From assembly GCF_003991135.1 (NCBI RefSeq), contig NZ_CP016379.1, positions 2,728,001 to 2,792,000 on the forward strand: a DNA stretch of 64,000 bases, in the 5' to 3' direction. The notes under the pieces are model-generated. The model had not been told where the DNA came from, did not search any database, and was given only the letters and a program-made list of their open reading frames with translations. The position numbers and the translations under genes were made by a program. Source of the stretch: Anoxybacter fermentans. Lineage in GTDB: Bacteria > Bacillota > Halanaerobiia > DY22613. Below are positions 4,392 through 59,625 of this stretch, in pieces. Numbering within the stretch: position 1 is the stretch's first letter; every line of letters begins with the position of its first letter.

Positions 4392-4598
4392 CTGCAAAAA
4401 GTTAATTTTTCGCTCCTTGAGAAATTTTTCGAACCATCTAAAGCTCGATTTCCGCCGAAATAAGGCTTCCTAATCAAAGGGCCCTCCTGGCCCTTGATTA
4501 GCTCATCACTTCCTGTGATGAGGCCTTATTTCGGCGGAAATCTCGCTAAGATGGTTTAGCGAAAAATTTCTATGTCGCTCAAAATTAGCTTTTTGCAG
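4392..4598 (+). repeat. Three-way-junction MITE-like element, copy 2 (full)
   Basis: 207 bp, forward orientation, complete with both inner hairpins. It lies 39 bp beyond the stop of the small membrane protein gene, between that gene and the orphan RHS tip, so it may mark where the orphan cassette was separated from the main operon. Confidence 0.9.
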
Positions 4599-18638: not shown

Positions 18639-18845
18639 CTGCAAAAAGCTAATTTTGAGCGTCATAGAAATTTTTCGTTAAACCATCTTAGTGAAATTTT
18701 GGTCGAAATAAGGCCTCATCACAGGATGTGATGAGCTAATCAAAAACCAGGAGGGCCCATTGATTAGTGTGCCTTATTTCGACTGAAATCGAACTTTAGA
18801 TGGTTCGAAAAATTTCTTTTGAAGTGAAAAATTAGCTTTTTGCAG
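18639..18845 (-). repeat. Three-way-junction MITE-like element, copy 4 (full)
   Basis: 207 bp, reverse orientation (the CATCACAGGATGTGATG hairpin comes first, then the one with GGCCC/GGGCC-type arms). It sits in the divergent intergenic region, between the activator start and the promoter of the chromate transporter pair. Confidence 0.9.
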
Positions 18846-35187: not shown

Positions 35188-35308
35188 CTGCAAAAAGCTA
35201 ATTTTGAGCGCCATAGAAATTTTTCGTTTAACCATCTTGGTGAGATTTCAGTCGAACTTTAAATGGTTCGAAAAATTTCTTTTAAAGTGAAAAATTAGCT
35301 TTTTGCAG
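35188..35308 (-). repeat. MITE-like element, copy 6 (both inner hairpins deleted)
   Basis: 121 bp. Both arms are present with reverse-orientation signature. The left arm ends at TTTCAGTCGAA and passes directly into the right arm, so the two inner hairpins are cleanly missing. It lies between divergent spoVT and the lipoprotein gene. Confidence 0.9.
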
Positions 35309-38910: not shown

Positions 38911-39118
38911 CTGCACAAAGCTAATTTTTCGCTTCACAGTGAAATTTTTCGAACCATCTAAAGTTCGATCTCAATCGAAATAAGGCATACTAATCAACGG
39001 GCTCTCCTGGCCTTTGATTAGCTCATCACTTCCTGTGATGAGGCCTTATTTCTCCTTCGATCTCACTAAGATGGTTTAACGAAAAATTTCAACATCGCTC
39101 AAAATTAGCATTGTGCAG
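38911..39118 (+). repeat. MITE-like element, copy 7 (full, with compensatory end change)
   Basis: 208 bp, forward orientation. The ends read CTGCACAAAGCTAA and TTAGCATTGTGCAG: position 6 is changed from A to C on the left and from T to G on the right, so pairing is kept. A tight hairpin TGCCC-TTC-GGGCA (38898-38910) abuts its left end. Confidence 0.9.
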
Positions 39119-40693: not shown

Positions 40694-40900
40694 CTGCAAA
40701 AAGCTAATTTTGAGCGACATAGAAATTTTTCGCCAAATCATCTTAGCGAGATTTCCGACGAAATAAGGCTTCATTAAAGGATGTGATGAGCTAATCAAGG
40801 GCCAGGAGAGCCCTTTGATTAGGAAGCCTTATTTCAGCAGAAATCAAGCTTTAGATAATTCGAAAAATTTCTCAAGAAGCAAAAAATTAGCTTTTTGCAG
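40694..40900 (-). repeat. Three-way-junction MITE-like element, copy 9 (full)
   Basis: 207 bp, reverse orientation, 36 bp past the stop of the GerC-like gene. The first hairpin is the CATTAAAGGATGTGATG variant, also found inverted in copies 10 and 11. Confidence 0.9.
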
Positions 40901-47767: not shown

Positions 47768-47955
47768 CTGCAAAAAGCTAATTTTTCGAATCATCTAAAG
47801 CTCGATTTCCGCCGAAATAAGGCTTCCTAATCAAAGGGCCCTCCTGGCCTTTGATTAGTTCATCACATCCTTTAATGAGGCCTTATTTCGTCGGAAATCT
47901 CGCTAAGATGATTTAGCGAAAAATTTCTATGTCGCTCAAAATTAGCTTTTTGCAG
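47768..47955 (+). repeat. MITE-like element, copy 11 (short deletion in left arm)
   Basis: 188 bp, forward orientation; about 20 bp after CTAATTTTTCG are missing from the left arm, while both inner hairpins and the right arm are complete. It begins 22 bp after the second-family copy C. Confidence 0.9.
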
Positions 47956-52315: not shown

Positions 52316-53404
52316 CTACGATGTAGTTTTAAACAAACGAATCCTGGATTCAACTTTAACCCGAAAAGTAATATTTTTAAATTCATCATACCAATCAATT
52401 TTAGCAAAATACTTTGGATATCTGGCTCTCATAATCTTTCCAATCCCAATGGGATCTACTTTAAATTCATGCTGTAATTTTTTGAGTAAAAGATAAGTCT
52501 GGTTTTCCAGATAATCATTTAATTTATTTTCTAATTCTGAGACTTTCTTCTTATCTTCTGAAATATTAATTGTAAAGGGTGCTTCTATAAGATCACAATT
52601 TATTTTAATCTTTATCGAAGTAGTTATTTTACCCTTCACCAACTTAGGTTTTATTTCTGTTTTTTCCAATCGAACAAAATACGAAACTTTATCATCAGGA
52701 AGAGTTATACAGCCTATCGAATTAACACTCTGAATCATTAATAATACCTGAGTTAAATTTTCATCTAATATACCGACCATTTTATCATTTCGAAAAAGTA
52801 CAACACCCACCAGACTAAAATCTTTATCCCCACCCCGGATATAAGGCAAATAGGGATCAATTCCTTTTGTTAAAATCCTAACATAAAATTCAAATAAAGT
52901 CTGATCCGGAATCTGAAATGATACTGAACTATTATTGGTGATAATATCGCGTAATACCTTACCAAATTGATTATCTTTGCTAATTTCACTTTTGTAAAGA
53001 TCATCTAACTTATTTTGAACCACCGCTAAAATTACAGTACCCGGGACAATAGGGTCACGCCAAAAATAATTTAGATATGGTTTTAAACCTCTTCTGGATA
53101 GATTTTCATCGAAAAAAAGTGCTGCAAGTTGAGCATGTACAATCTTCCCATTTACTCTTCTTTCAAAGTTATTAATTCCCTCCTGAACTGTACTTGCTAA
53201 TGTTACAATTGAAATCCTTTTTAACTTTTCAGGACTAATAGAACTATATTCTATAAAAAATCTAAATTTATTAAGGTCATCAGGTAAACTGGTAAAACCA
53301 TACGAAACGGGTAAAACCGAATTTTCAATTTCAACTAAATCCCAACACCCTGAAAGCAAAAGACATCCTAATATTATAATAATAAAAATTTTTCTCTTCA
53401 TCAT
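52316..53404 (-). CDS. Germinant receptor C subunit, Ger(x)C lipoprotein (operon 2)
   Basis: 362 residues from the ATG at 53404, nine bases after GGAGGG; a GTG at 53410 is too close to that site. Lipobox LLLSGC followed by WDLVEIENSVLPVSYGF. C-terminal Ger(x)C domain with LQHEFKVDPIGIGKIMRARYPKYF. Outer lipoprotein of the second germinant receptor. It starts just after the B-subunit gene ends. Confidence 0.95.
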   Translation of the reverse strand: MMKRKIFIIIILGCLLLSGCWDLVEIENSVLPVSYGFTSLPDDLNKFRFFIEYSSISPEKLKRISIVTLASTVQEGINNFERRVNGKIVHAQLAALFFDENLSRRGLKPYLNYFWRDPIVPGTVILAVVQNKLDDLYKSEISKDNQFGKVLRDIITNNSSVSFQIPDQTLFEFYVRILTKGIDPYLPYIRGGDKDFSLVGVVLFRNDKMVGILDENLTQVLLMIQSVNSIGCITLPDDKVSYFVRLEKTEIKPKLVKGKITTSIKIKINCDLIEAPFTINISEDKKKVSELENKLNDYLENQTYLLLKKLQHEFKVDPIGIGKIMRARYPKYFAKIDWYDEFKNITFRVKVESRIRLFKTTS

Positions 53405-53409
53405 TATCA

Positions 53410-54495
53410 CTAACCCTCCTGAAATCCTCTTATTCTAGCAATTATCAATAATATTAGTGGAATAAAAAATCCAAAAATGACCGAAAAAATTCCAGCATAT
53501 TGGGATAATTCAAAAATTTCTATTAAGTTTTTCGGTATTTGGGTAATAACATATATAACCGGTATAAGAAACAGGTTTAATTTTCTCTTATCTTTAACCG
53601 GTATTTTCTGTTGCAAGCCAAAAACTAATAGATAATATAGACCAGAAACTGTAGTAAAAGCAAAAATGACCCATAATAAAACAAATGTAAATTCCAATCT
53701 ACCTAAAAAGGGGACCCTAATTACTTTTGAAAGATTAATAGTAGGCCAAATAACTTCAGCAATAACATCTTCTCCATAGTATCCCAAATTTATAATTACA
53801 ATATAGACATAAAGTAAAACAACCATTGCTACACTAAGATAGGCGAATTTCTGTATATTTTTTTTTTCTTTAACCAGTGGATACATAACTAAAAAGCTTT
53901 CCAGACCTGCCAGACTGAAAAGAGAAACCTGGGTACCCTTCAATAGTTTTGAAAATTCTATTTCAAAAAATAAATTATACCTATCAATTCTAAAAATAAT
54001 AGGTAACAAAACTCCAAAACCCAGACTTAATAGAAAAAAAAGATGTTCAAAAACTCTACCAATGTTTTTTAACTGTTTTTCTGCTAGATAACCTACAACT
54101 ACTAACATGCTAAAAAGTAAAACCGGAATTGGAGTCTTTGGGAGCAAAAAAGAATTTAATATAGCTGCAAACTGACTCAATATTAAACTAATGATAAATA
54201 AAAGATAAACAAAATATAGAAAGACAATTATTTTTCCCAAAATCTTACCAACAATAATTTCTACATAATTAAAAACCAGCTGATCTGGAAATATTCTGGC
54301 CAACTTACCCATAATATAAATAGCACCTATCCAGAATATTCCAGCCAAAAGAACAGTAATCCATCCTCCTCTCCCACCTTCAGTTACTATACTACGAGCA
54401 ATACTTAAAAACCCCACTCCTACAGCGATATGAATCAAAATAAATGTCATCTGACGGCCTGTAATAAGATTTTCTCTTATATCAATTTCCTTCAT
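53410..54495 (-). CDS. Germinant receptor B subunit, GerAB/APC family (operon 2)
   Basis: 361 residues from the ATG at 54495, behind GGAGGTG; a longer frame to 54531 would run 50 bp into the A-subunit gene. About ten membrane helices, with LITGRQMTFILIHIAVGVGFL at the start. Spore germination branch of the APC superfamily. It overlaps the A-subunit gene by 14 bp. Confidence 0.94.
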   Translation of the reverse strand: MKEIDIRENLITGRQMTFILIHIAVGVGFLSIARSIVTEGGRGGWITVLLAGIFWIGAIYIMGKLARIFPDQLVFNYVEIIVGKILGKIIVFLYFVYLLFIISLILSQFAAILNSFLLPKTPIPVLLFSMLVVVGYLAEKQLKNIGRVFEHLFFLLSLGFGVLLPIIFRIDRYNLFFEIEFSKLLKGTQVSLFSLAGLESFLVMYPLVKEKKNIQKFAYLSVAMVVLLYVYIVIINLGYYGEDVIAEVIWPTINLSKVIRVPFLGRLEFTFVLLWVIFAFTTVSGLYYLLVFGLQQKIPVKDKRKLNLFLIPVIYVITQIPKNLIEIFELSQYAGIFSVIFGFFIPLILLIIARIRGFQEG

Positions 54496-56047
54496 CTTTC
54501 TCACCTCCATATTTAAATCTATCATTATCATGATGCGGTATAGATCTGGGTCTTTTTCTCAGATATTGATAAGGTGCTCTAATCAAAACATCTTTAAGAT
54601 CCTTAAAATTTAACGGTGCTAAGGGAGTAAAATAGGGTACATCAAAAGATTCCAGGCTGGTTAAGTGAATTATAATAAACAAATAGCCCAGAATAACACC
54701 ATATAGGCTAAGAATTGAAGCCAATATCATCATAAAAAATCGAAATAAACGTAAAGGTACGCCTATAGAACTGATAGGTACAGTAAAGGAAGCTATAGCT
54801 GTAACGGCTACCACAATTACCATAGGGGCGCTGACAAGATTTGCCCTGACTGCTGCTTCACCGATAACCAACCCGCCGACAATACTTATAGTCTGTCCGA
54901 TTGGCCCTGGAAGTCTCGCTCCTGCTTCTCGAATTACCTCCAAAAGCCCCTCCATCAAAAATGCTTCAATAAAAGAGGGAAAAGGAACCTTACTTCTGGC
55001 AATAGCAAGAGGTATAATCAGGTCAATTGGTAAAAGCTCAGGATGAAATGTTACCAGAGAAATATAAATGGCCGGTAAAAATATTGCAAATATAGCTGAT
55101 AATATTCTTATAAAACGTACAAAAGTGGCAACAAAGGGTTTATCATAATAATCTTCAGGAGATTGAAAAAAGTGCATCAACAATGCAGGAACCAGATAAA
55201 CATAAGGAGTATGTTCCAACATCAATGCAATCTGTCCCTCCATTAAACCAGCTGAAATCTTATCCGGTCTCTCTGTCTTTAATAACTGGGGGAATGGTGT
55301 TAAATGATTATCTGAAATAAAATCTTCTAAAATTCCTATATCCAATACCAGATCAATATCAATCTGATCTAGCCTTTCTTCCACTTTATACAACAATTCT
55401 TGATTGATAATATCATCTATATAGAGAAGGGCCAGTTTAGCTTTTCCGCGCCTACCAATTGTTTTATATTTAACTTTTAAATGGGGATCACGAATCCTTT
55501 TGCGAATCATTGAGATATTGGTCTGAAGATTTTCTACAAATGCCTCCTGGGGGCCATAAGTTGTGATTTCATTAGTTGCAGGAGCGACACTTCTTTCTTG
55601 CCATCCTTTGATATCTAAAATAAAAGCTCTGGGTACTTTCTCTACCAGTAAAACTCCATTACCTTCCAAAATACTATCCATAATCTTTTTAAAGGAATCT
55701 GTCTCATCTACTATACTGATAGATAAGAATTTGGATGCTAGATCTTTAAGTATAACCTGATCAATCTTTTCTTCACAATAATCACCATCCATAAACATTA
55801 AAGGACGTAAAATACTTTCATTAATTAATTCCTTTTCCACCAGTGGTTCTACAAAAATGAGCGTGGCCCTATTTTCTTTGATAAAAAACTCCCGGAATTT
55901 TATATCCTGTGAACCATCAAAAATCTTTTTTAGTTTCTTAATGTTTTTATAATAATCGCTACTAAATTTTTTCTCAATAATTTCTTTCCTGATCGATTTG
56001 CTAGATTGGTTATTTTTTTTGAATAAATTTTTTAATTTATCCCACAT
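54482..56047 (-). CDS. Germinant receptor A subunit, GerAA family (operon 2)
   Basis: 521 residues, ATG behind GAAGGG. Hallmarks: SMIRKRIRDPHLKVKYKTIG, FFQSPEDYYDKPFVATFVRFIR, PFPSFIEAFLMEGLLEVIREAG, ARLPGPIGQTISIVGGLVIGE. The N-terminus is Lys/Asn-rich. It is clearly paralogous to the A subunit at 43.1-44.7 kb but diverged, so the two receptors probably answer different germinants. Confidence 0.96.
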   Translation of the reverse strand: MWDKLKNLFKKNNQSSKSIRKEIIEKKFSSDYYKNIKKLKKIFDGSQDIKFREFFIKENRATLIFVEPLVEKELINESILRPLMFMDGDYCEEKIDQVILKDLASKFLSISIVDETDSFKKIMDSILEGNGVLLVEKVPRAFILDIKGWQERSVAPATNEITTYGPQEAFVENLQTNISMIRKRIRDPHLKVKYKTIGRRGKAKLALLYIDDIINQELLYKVEERLDQIDIDLVLDIGILEDFISDNHLTPFPQLLKTERPDKISAGLMEGQIALMLEHTPYVYLVPALLMHFFQSPEDYYDKPFVATFVRFIRILSAIFAIFLPAIYISLVTFHPELLPIDLIIPLAIARSKVPFPSFIEAFLMEGLLEVIREAGARLPGPIGQTISIVGGLVIGEAAVRANLVSAPMVIVVAVTAIASFTVPISSIGVPLRLFRFFMMILASILSLYGVILGYLFIIIHLTSLESFDVPYFTPLAPLNFKDLKDVLIRAPYQYLRKRPRSIPHHDNDRFKYGGEKDEGN

Positions 56048-56127
56048 AATCTATCCCTTCTCTAGTTATTTTTTTGATGTCTAAAATTATTCTAACCGTA
56101 AATATGTTAGATTATAATATGATTATA

Positions 56128-56336
56128 CTGCAAAAAGCTAATTTTGAGTGACATAGAAATTTTTCGCCAAATCATCTTAACGAGATTTCCGACGAAATAA
56201 AGCCTCATCACAGGAGGTGATGAGCTAGTTCTAAGGGCCAGAAGGACCCTTTGATTAAGAAGCCTTATTTCGGCGAAAATCGAGCTTTAGATAATTCGAA
56301 AAATTTCTCAAGAAGCGAAAAATTAGCTTTTTGCAG
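56128..56336 (-). repeat. Three-way-junction MITE-like element, copy 12 (full)
   Basis: 209 bp, reverse orientation, both inner hairpins intact. It sits in the divergent gap between germinant operon 2 and the Gln/Gly/Tyr-rich gene. Confidence 0.9.
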
Positions 56337-56608
56337 TTTGATCAGTTATTATTTTTTTTCCAATAAAGATTCCTACCTGTAATAATTTTTTTTTAAATTG
56401 AAAGAATAAAATTGAAAGCAATGACAGAAAGGAGGGTAAATTTTATTACCTCTATCTACCAAAGAATTTAACTATGTCATAAACCATCTTTTCTGGGAAC
56501 TATTAATGGTAAAAAAGTATTATAAATTACGCTTAACAGATAACAGACTCTCAATTAGAGCAAACTAAGACAACTATATTATTTACCTTAAAGGAGGCAA
56601 AAACAGAT
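56337..56608. other. Leader region of the Gln/Gly/Tyr-rich genes
   Basis: AT-rich, no protein-coding gene seen apart from a 16-codon frame around an AAAGGAGGG motif (56421-56471) that is probably chance. AAAGGAGG at about 56589 serves the next gene. A sporulation promoter is expected but not clear. Confidence 0.35.
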
Positions 56609-57451
56609 ATGAACAAAGCACACGGCGGTTATGGTATGACTGGTCAATATGGCGGCCAAAGCCAATATCAAGGAATGAATCAGGCCAACCAATATAGCTA
56701 CACCAATCAATATCGCGGCAACAATCCTCAACATTCTGAAGAACACGGCGGTTATGGTATGACCGGCTATACCGATTCCCAGTCTGGTGGTGGACAGGGC
56801 CAATATCAGGCCAACCAATATGGCTACACCAGTCAATATCGCGGCAACAACCCTCAACATTCTGAAGAACGCGGCGGTTATGGTATAACAAGTCAATATG
56901 GTGGTCAAAGCCAATATCAGGGTATGACTCAAGGTACTCAATATCAACAAACTAATATAACCAGCGGTTATGGTACTACCGGTCAGAGCGGTTCCCAGTC
57001 TGGTGGTGGACAGGGCCAATATCAGGCCAACCAATATGGCTACACCAGTCAATATCGCGGCAACAATCCTCAACACTCTGAAGAACGCGGTGGTTATGGT
57101 ATAACAAATCAATATGGTGGTCAAAGCCAATATCAAGGTATGACTCAAGGTACTCAATATCAACAAACTAATATAACCAGCGGTTATGGTACTACCGGTC
57201 AGAGCGGTTCCCAGTCTGGTGGTGGACAGGGCCAATATCAGGCCAACCAATATGGCTACACCAGTCAATATCGCGGCAACAACCCTCAACATTCTGAAGA
57301 ACACGGCGGTTATGGTATGGCAGGTCAATATAGTGGTCAAAGCCAATATCAGGGTATGAACCAGGCTAATCAATATGGCTATACCAACCAATATCGGGGT
57401 TATACAACTGAACACAGTGAAGAACCAACTTCCACTGGAGGCAGGATGTAA
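56609..57451 (+). CDS. Gln/Gly/Tyr-rich repetitive low-complexity protein
   Basis: 280 residues, ATG 12 bases after AAAGGAGG. Almost entirely Gly, Gln, Tyr, Asn, Ser and Thr. Units of GGYGMTGQYGGQSQYQGM, ANQYGYTSQYRGNNPQHSEE and QSGSQSGGGQGQYQ recur three to four times, with near-identical DNA blocks of about 230 bp. There is no signal peptide. Composition resembles spore coat or crust proteins and also prion-like, phase-separating domains with regularly spaced Tyr. It is next to germination genes and coupled to a second protein of similar composition, so a spore surface role is likely though unproven. Confidence 0.75.
   Translation: MNKAHGGYGMTGQYGGQSQYQGMNQANQYSYTNQYRGNNPQHSEEHGGYGMTGYTDSQSGGGQGQYQANQYGYTSQYRGNNPQHSEERGGYGITSQYGGQSQYQGMTQGTQYQQTNITSGYGTTGQSGSQSGGGQGQYQANQYGYTSQYRGNNPQHSEERGGYGITNQYGGQSQYQGMTQGTQYQQTNITSGYGTTGQSGSQSGGGQGQYQANQYGYTSQYRGNNPQHSEEHGGYGMAGQYSGQSQYQGMNQANQYGYTNQYRGYTTEHSEEPTSTGGRM
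56879..57330 (+). repeat. Tandem 230-bp repeats inside the low-complexity gene
   Basis: The block from GGTATAACAAGTCAATATGG to the next GGCGGTTATGG is repeated with only a few changes; the whole units start near 56879 and 57101. Recent tandem duplication; a third, partial unit lies upstream. Repeat number may vary between strains. Confidence 0.8.
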
Positions 57452-57747
57452 TGGATAATCAAAATAACTTAGGACGTCAATATACCAGTAATCCCAAATT
57501 TGGTACTATCTATCCCAATACTCAATATAAAGGATATACCGAAGAAGAAGGTACACCATATGGTGGACCTTCTAATATGCAGCAACAAAAAAATCAAATA
57601 TTAAGTAACGTAAAATATCATGGTGCTGATCAATACAGTCAGCAAAGAATTAAAAATCAATATCAAGGAATGAATCAGCAATCTGAAAATACCCTTAATG
57701 CAACCACTCCTAAACTGCATAACACTCTAGAAAATGAAATTAAGTAG
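57451..57747 (+). CDS. Small Gln/Asn-rich protein coupled to the repetitive protein
   Basis: 98 residues. The start ATG overlaps the preceding stop (TAATG) and GGAGGCAGG lies inside the end of that gene, so translation is coupled. The product is Gln/Asn/Tyr-rich (MDNQNNLGRQYTSNPKFGTI, then NQYQGMNQQSENT) and shares the QYQGMNQ motif with its neighbour. Unlike it, it is not tandemly repeated. Probable partner in the same spore or surface structure. Confidence 0.72.
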   Translation: MDNQNNLGRQYTSNPKFGTIYPNTQYKGYTEEEGTPYGGPSNMQQQKNQILSNVKYHGADQYSQQRIKNQYQGMNQQSENTLNATTPKLHNTLENEIK

Positions 57748-57850
57748 TGGTTGACGAATCTTAACTTACAAATCCCTCCATTCTGGATGTAGTAAGTTAG
57801 AGATTGGGTTAACTACTACTTACTCAGAAGGAGGGATTTGTTATTTTTTA
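57742..57850 (+). promoter_or_regulatory. Terminator with a competing hairpin, possible attenuator
   Basis: ACAAATCCCTCC (57768-57779) pairs perfectly with GGAGGGATTTGT (57830-57841), followed by TATTTTTT: a terminator with a 50-nt loop. Within it AACTTAC (57764-57770) can instead pair with GTAAGTT (57793-57799). AAGTAGTGGTTGAC can pair with GTTAACTACTACTT. The overlap of AACTTAC with the terminator arm suggests alternative folds. Simple termination of the upstream genes is the minimal reading. Confidence 0.5.
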
Positions 57851-59382: not shown

Positions 59383-59398
59383 TATGAAATGAATTAAA

Positions 59399-59605
59399 CT
59401 GCAAAAAGCTAATTTTGAGCGACATAGAAATTTTTCGCCAAATCATCTTAGCGAGATTTCCGACAAAATAAGGCCTCATCACAGGAGGTGATGAGCTAAT
59501 CAAGGGCCAGGATGGCCCTTTGATTAGGAAACCTTATTTCGGCGAAAATCGAGCTTTAGATGATTCGAAAAATTTCTCAAGAAGCGAAAAATTAGCTTCT
59601 TGCAG
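59399..59605 (-). repeat. Three-way-junction MITE-like element, copy 13 (full)
   Basis: 207 bp, reverse orientation, both inner hairpins complete (CATCACAGGAGGTGATG and TAATCAAGGGCC...GGCCCTTTGATTA). It lies between two convergent genes, 20 bp past the GH13 stop. Confidence 0.92.
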
Positions 59606-59625
59606 TTTAACCATTAAATTTATAT

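Follow-up and report, generated by a model that had tools for sequence, protein, structure and literature searches.

The 64-kb stretch of Anoxybacter fermentans DNA analyzed here (the window; the genome is complete, with 3.56 Mb) contains a locus which, by comparison with its counterpart in a related genus, is a reduced Coat_F operon: both Coat_F modules have been lost, while a Tyr/Gln/Gly-rich repeat protein has been kept intact. We think it probable that the repeat protein is a disordered matrix protein of the coat, taking all variants of a spore-layer location together. The initial annotation had described a prion-like repeat protein with a small partner and missed the decay of the two neighboring Coat_F modules. 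To our knowledge, little is known about coat proteins in the deeply branching anaerobic spore formers, and profile searches miss repeat proteins with fast turnover.

The repeat gene and its partner

The repeat gene (positions 56609 to 57451, plus strand), recognized by its open reading frame, by repeat finders and by a homologue in another genome, encodes a protein of 280 amino acids. The protein consists of five units of 41, 42, 72, 72, and 41 residues from the N to the C terminus, which end in QYRGNNPQHSEE or QYRGYTTEHSEE. The near-exact duplication of the unit at the DNA level, claimed in the initial annotation, was confirmed: the sole array found by TRF (56748 to 57359, plus strand) has a period of 216 bp and 2.8 copies with 94% matches and no indels, and units 3 and 4 differ at only 5 of 216 bases. 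Gly (22%), Gln (19%), Tyr (13%), Thr (9%), Ser (9%) and Asn (7.5%) dominate the composition. Leu, Val, Phe, Trp and Cys are absent, Lys occurs once (0.4%), and Arg (2.9%) is present in each unit. The 37 Tyr residues are indeed regularly spaced in a Gly/Gln/Asn/Ser background, as had been noticed before, the largest gap being 17 residues versus a mean of 29 in shuffled sequences (p = 0.006). With a charge-hydropathy index of −0.26, which predicts disorder, a share of 71% for Gly, Gln, Tyr, Asn and Ser, and no Tyr gap above 17, the protein has the sequence features of a prion-like low-complexity domain, and its composition makes it a candidate that may show prion-like or condensate behavior.

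Searches of Pfam and NCBIfam with the repeat protein and its partner gave no match, and for the repeat protein this includes any known coat family. A sequence search against solved structures and a phage search were likewise without a match, the repeat protein contains no folded domain, RNA-binding or otherwise, and no signal peptide or membrane segment is visible in either protein. An open frame of 275 codons (56588 to 57415, minus strand) overlaps the repeat gene, and is most likely a by-product of codon make-up and repetition; the homologous gene is likewise overlapped by an antisense frame of 272 codons.

The partner gene (57451 to 57747, plus strand) encodes 98 amino acids. It starts within the stop codon of the repeat gene, its ATG sharing the A of the TAA in a one-base overlap, and the motif QYQGMNQ is common to both proteins, exactly as the initial annotation stated. 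A 7-mer was shared with the repeat protein by only 1 of 2000 shuffled partners, and similarity beyond this motif is marginal (23 of 1000 shuffles in the window pair, 3 of 1000 in the homologous pair). Downstream lies a probable operon terminator (57763 to 57846, plus strand), an inverted repeat with 17-nt arms that are 88% complementary and 50 nt apart, followed by a T-rich stretch. The ribosome-binding site, the coupling and the terminator are intact.

An orthologous operon carries Coat_F domains

Both genes were found in 1 of 60 related genomes, namely G001, from a different genus of this family, and the best matches of the partner outside G001 had E-values of 0.1 or worse. With the G001 repeat protein as the query against 398 genomes of the phylum, the window genome was the only match; the repeat gene is known from these two genomes only. 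Two weak matches in the phylum to the front part of the partner look like low-complexity or chance similarity, as does the single match in a search for related loci, which came from Anaerolineales (28% over 47 residues).

The gene order in G001 is the same as in the window, and the flanks are syntenic, with genes for an alpha-amylase and a LytS/LytR-type two-component system. The G001 repeat protein has about seven units, mostly of 56 amino acids, which have the core GGYG...SQYQGxNQ...NQYGYTxQYRG...HSE in common with the window units. The G001 partner is much longer, with 281 amino acids, and its C-terminal part (residues 195 to 256) is a Coat_F domain (PF07875; E-value of 4e−22, 78.7 bits versus a cutoff of 25.7). 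Just upstream of the G001 repeat gene lies a 60-amino-acid gene that has a weak match to Coat_F (18.8 bits, below the cutoff) and shares 35 to 44% identity with the small members of Coat_F pairs. The initial annotation had considered a spore surface layer, and this idea gains indirect support from the syntenic orthologue of the partner, a Coat_F protein, and from the derivation of the locus from a Coat_F operon. About 6 kb from the operon, G001 also encodes a CotJB-domain protein (L014:15594-16286; PF12652, E-value of 6e−23). This is one more coat protein that has an extension of biased composition, here a long Met/His-rich low-complexity front part.

Within the class, Coat_F is limited to spore formers: 26 of the 29 genomes with SpoIVA have it, compared with 0 of the 32 genomes without SpoIVA (Fisher p = 3e−14). 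The SpoIVA-positive genomes without a match at an E-value of 0.001 are the window genome (G000), G006, which has a weak profile match, and G025. In five genomes (G010, G005, G022, G049, and G003) a small gene and a Coat_F gene are adjacent, the small one first, without a repeat gene. Because such pairs occur elsewhere in the class, the repeat gene looks, from gene order, as if it had been added in this family only, between the members of an older Coat_F pair. The second Coat_F proteins of G005 and G049, which belong to the same subfamily, have a Q/Y/G- or Q/H-rich front of their own, which suggests that low-complexity additions arose more than once, or were retained, at this locus.

Loss of both Coat_F modules in the window genome

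Immediately upstream of the repeat gene we identified the remnant of a small Coat_F-like gene (56446 to 56607, plus strand) by tblastn, DNA alignment and profile match. The remnant aligns with 25 of the 60 residues of the G001 gene at 80% identity (tblastn, E-value of 4.5e−12). TTA now occupies the position of the start codon, and beyond the first 25 codons the sequence diverges and contains an in-frame TAA and a deletion. A profile of the small genes had a single match in the whole window genome, at 56449 to 56526 (E-value of 5.6e−6).

The partner has been reduced twice, by an internal loss of the linker and the front of the Coat_F domain and then by a stop codon. Its low-complexity front part is conserved, 33 of the first 40 residues being identical to those of G001. 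After this front, the sequence jumps to LNATTPKLHNTLENEI, which corresponds to FEATTPELQNTLKNIL from the central part of the G001 Coat_F module, and then stops; these two stretches are paired in one tblastn alignment and split by a MAFFT alignment. The C-terminal stub, NATTPKLHNTLENEI, thus matches the middle of the module. Coat_F matches above the curated cutoff are absent from the window proteins and from the rest of the genome, which does contain SpoIVA and sigK. Hence, the window proteins are linked to the coat by orthology only, and we do not class the repeat protein as a Coat_F member, since these proteins lack the domain.

A gerA/gerB/gerC-type germination receptor operon (52316 to 56047; Pfam GerA, Spore_permease, and Spore_GerAC) adjoins the locus in divergent orientation; among the open reading frames listed near the G001 locus, we noticed none of the gerA type. 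Upstream of the operon, a search for sigE- or sigK-like promoters found none in the window genome or in G001. The upstream blocks TGTAATAA and GAATAAA are common to both and fit neither the SigE nor the SigK consensus spacing.

Between the receptor operon and the remnant lies a palindromic, MITE-like interspersed element (56125 to 56345), recognized by its genome copies, which is not part of the coat genes. The element is about 210 to 220 bp long and has the terminal sequence CTGCAAAAAGCTAATTTT. A second copy is located at 59398 to 59608, and about seven others lie elsewhere in the window, at approximately 34 to 240, 4392 to 4598, 18639 to 18845, 35188 to 35308, 38911 to 39118, 40694 to 40900, and 47768 to 47955. 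The end sequence has 21 matches in the 64-kb window versus 0.01 expected. The genome contains 657 candidates, and 40 near-full-length copies at 92 to 96% identity were found among those scored; this density suggests several hundred copies in the genome. The element had no match in G001, and an Rfam search of the window gave no family match.

The dead upstream gene, the doubly truncated partner, the lack of Coat_F elsewhere in the genome and a MITE-like element 100 bp upstream are what one would expect of a coat operon that is dying as a whole. In this case, the repeat gene and the stub partner would have lost all or nearly all function with the Coat_F genes and would still be open because little time has passed. 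We regard this as unlikely; the intact expression signals argue against it, and so does the pattern of substitutions in the repeats.

Purifying selection and turnover of the units

The five differences between units 3 and 4 are four synonymous changes and one non-synonymous change, and in simulations of five random mutations at most one amino acid change was obtained in 0.9% of the trials (a neutral chance of 0.009). Because the 72-amino-acid form of the unit is absent from G001, the window lineage is probably where this constraint operated, before or after the loss of Coat_F. Between the genera, the units differ by 0.53 to 0.93 synonymous changes per site, which is near saturation, versus 0.12 to 0.32 non-synonymous changes. 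By these comparisons, the repeat units are under purifying selection, and the sequence of the unit is kept while the number and arrangement of units turn over. The initial annotation called the repeat fast evolving, which holds for copy number and architecture (about seven mostly 56-amino-acid units in G001 versus 41- and 72-amino-acid units here) but not for the sequence of the unit. It also named frameshifted repeats in close relatives as evidence against its reading; in G001, the one relative with the gene, the repeats are in frame.

Discussion

Our preferred reading is that the repeat protein, disordered and cohesive, would have a structural role in the spore coat or in a spore layer further out. 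In G001, where the operon is intact, both the small Coat_F-like protein and the partner ending in Coat_F would be components of the coat. The latter could act as an adapter, with its Coat_F domain in the coat and its Tyr/Gln/Gly-rich front mixed with the repeat protein. Multivalent contacts between this front and the repeat protein (Tyr-Tyr and Tyr-Arg contacts, and hydrogen bonds of Gln and Asn) would then tie a flexible matrix to the coat, and oxidative Tyr-Tyr cross-links are possible. We infer expression in the mother cell, a location on the spore and this adhesive mode of action. Because the window organism no longer has either Coat_F module, its repeat protein and shortened partner would either build a layer without the anchor or be what is left of a coat layer being dismantled.

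Tyr/Gln/Gly-rich repeats are also known from adhesive and silk-like proteins that have nothing to do with spores, and the repeat protein might thus be a vegetative cell-surface, biofilm or outer-membrane-associated fiber. However, neither protein has a visible signal peptide or membrane segment, the repeat protein is devoid of Leu, Val, Phe and Trp, and the orthologous operon carries domains restricted to sporulators, which makes such a fiber highly improbable. We give hardly any credence to a cytoplasmic, prion-like protein that forms condensates (such as an RNA-binding or stress granule-like protein) and has no structural role on the spore: the composition, the regular Tyr residues and the Arg in each unit would suit it, but the repeat protein has no folded domain, has a Coat_F protein as its partner in G001, and has no similar protein in the SpoIVA-negative genomes.

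How does a spore-layer matrix protein of this kind compare with known systems? The Coat_F family includes B. subtilis CotF, YhcQ, YraD, YraF, and YusN (PMC3533761). In Bacilli and Clostridia, its members are well-established constituents of the coat, and CoatF-like proteins were also found in Moorella spores (PMC8745062). The window locus resembles these systems in that the partner's syntenic orthologue has Coat_F at its end, the layout of the gene pair is that of the other pairs of the class, and Gln-rich linkers are common in the Coat_F proteins examined. It differs in that its partner has lost the domain and that none of the other Coat_F loci examined has anything equivalent to the five-unit Tyr/Gln repeat protein. 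The C. difficile protein named CotF (PMC3789822) was not used for comparison because the name does not show Coat_F membership.

CotB and CotG of B. subtilis are disordered tandem-repeat proteins of the outer coat, for which a phase-separation-like assembly has been proposed (PMC7821199). The window protein likewise consists of disordered tandem repeats. However, the repeats of CotB and CotG are Ser/Lys/Arg-rich and phosphorylated by CotH, whereas the window repeats are Tyr/Gln/Gly-rich with a single Lys and little Arg, and no CotH-type kinase was recognized among the neighboring open reading frames. Biased composition is also a feature of B. subtilis GerQ and YeeK, and in this the window protein resembles them. 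Both are inner-coat substrates of transglutaminase and are cross-linked into the coat (PMC6490927). The Tgl enzyme (PF20085) had no match in the window genome or in G001, while the B. subtilis control was positive; without a Tgl gene and with one Lys in the repeat protein, cross-linking by transglutaminase is unlikely, and we rejected it.

Outside the bacteria, Tyr-rich prion-like low-complexity domains occur in eukaryotic RNA-binding proteins. The repeat protein resembles them in its regularly placed Tyr, its Gly/Gln/Ser/Asn background and its scattered Arg, but it lacks an RNA-binding domain or a match to a solved structure, and its genomic setting is different. We found no description in the literature searched of this type of Tyr/Gln/Gly repeat and its placement inside a Coat_F pair.

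In summary, a repeat protein of low complexity, itself an orphan, can be connected with the spore coat by comparing operons. The locus is a concrete test case for whether a spore layer can form by multivalent, phase-separation-like assembly, as proposed for CotB and CotG (PMC7821199). In its boldest form, which we advance as a long shot, a repeat protein with Tyr and Arg "stickers" would self-assemble a spore layer by condensation and would have outlived its Coat_F anchors. If this were true, a spore layer could be built by a disordered matrix alone.
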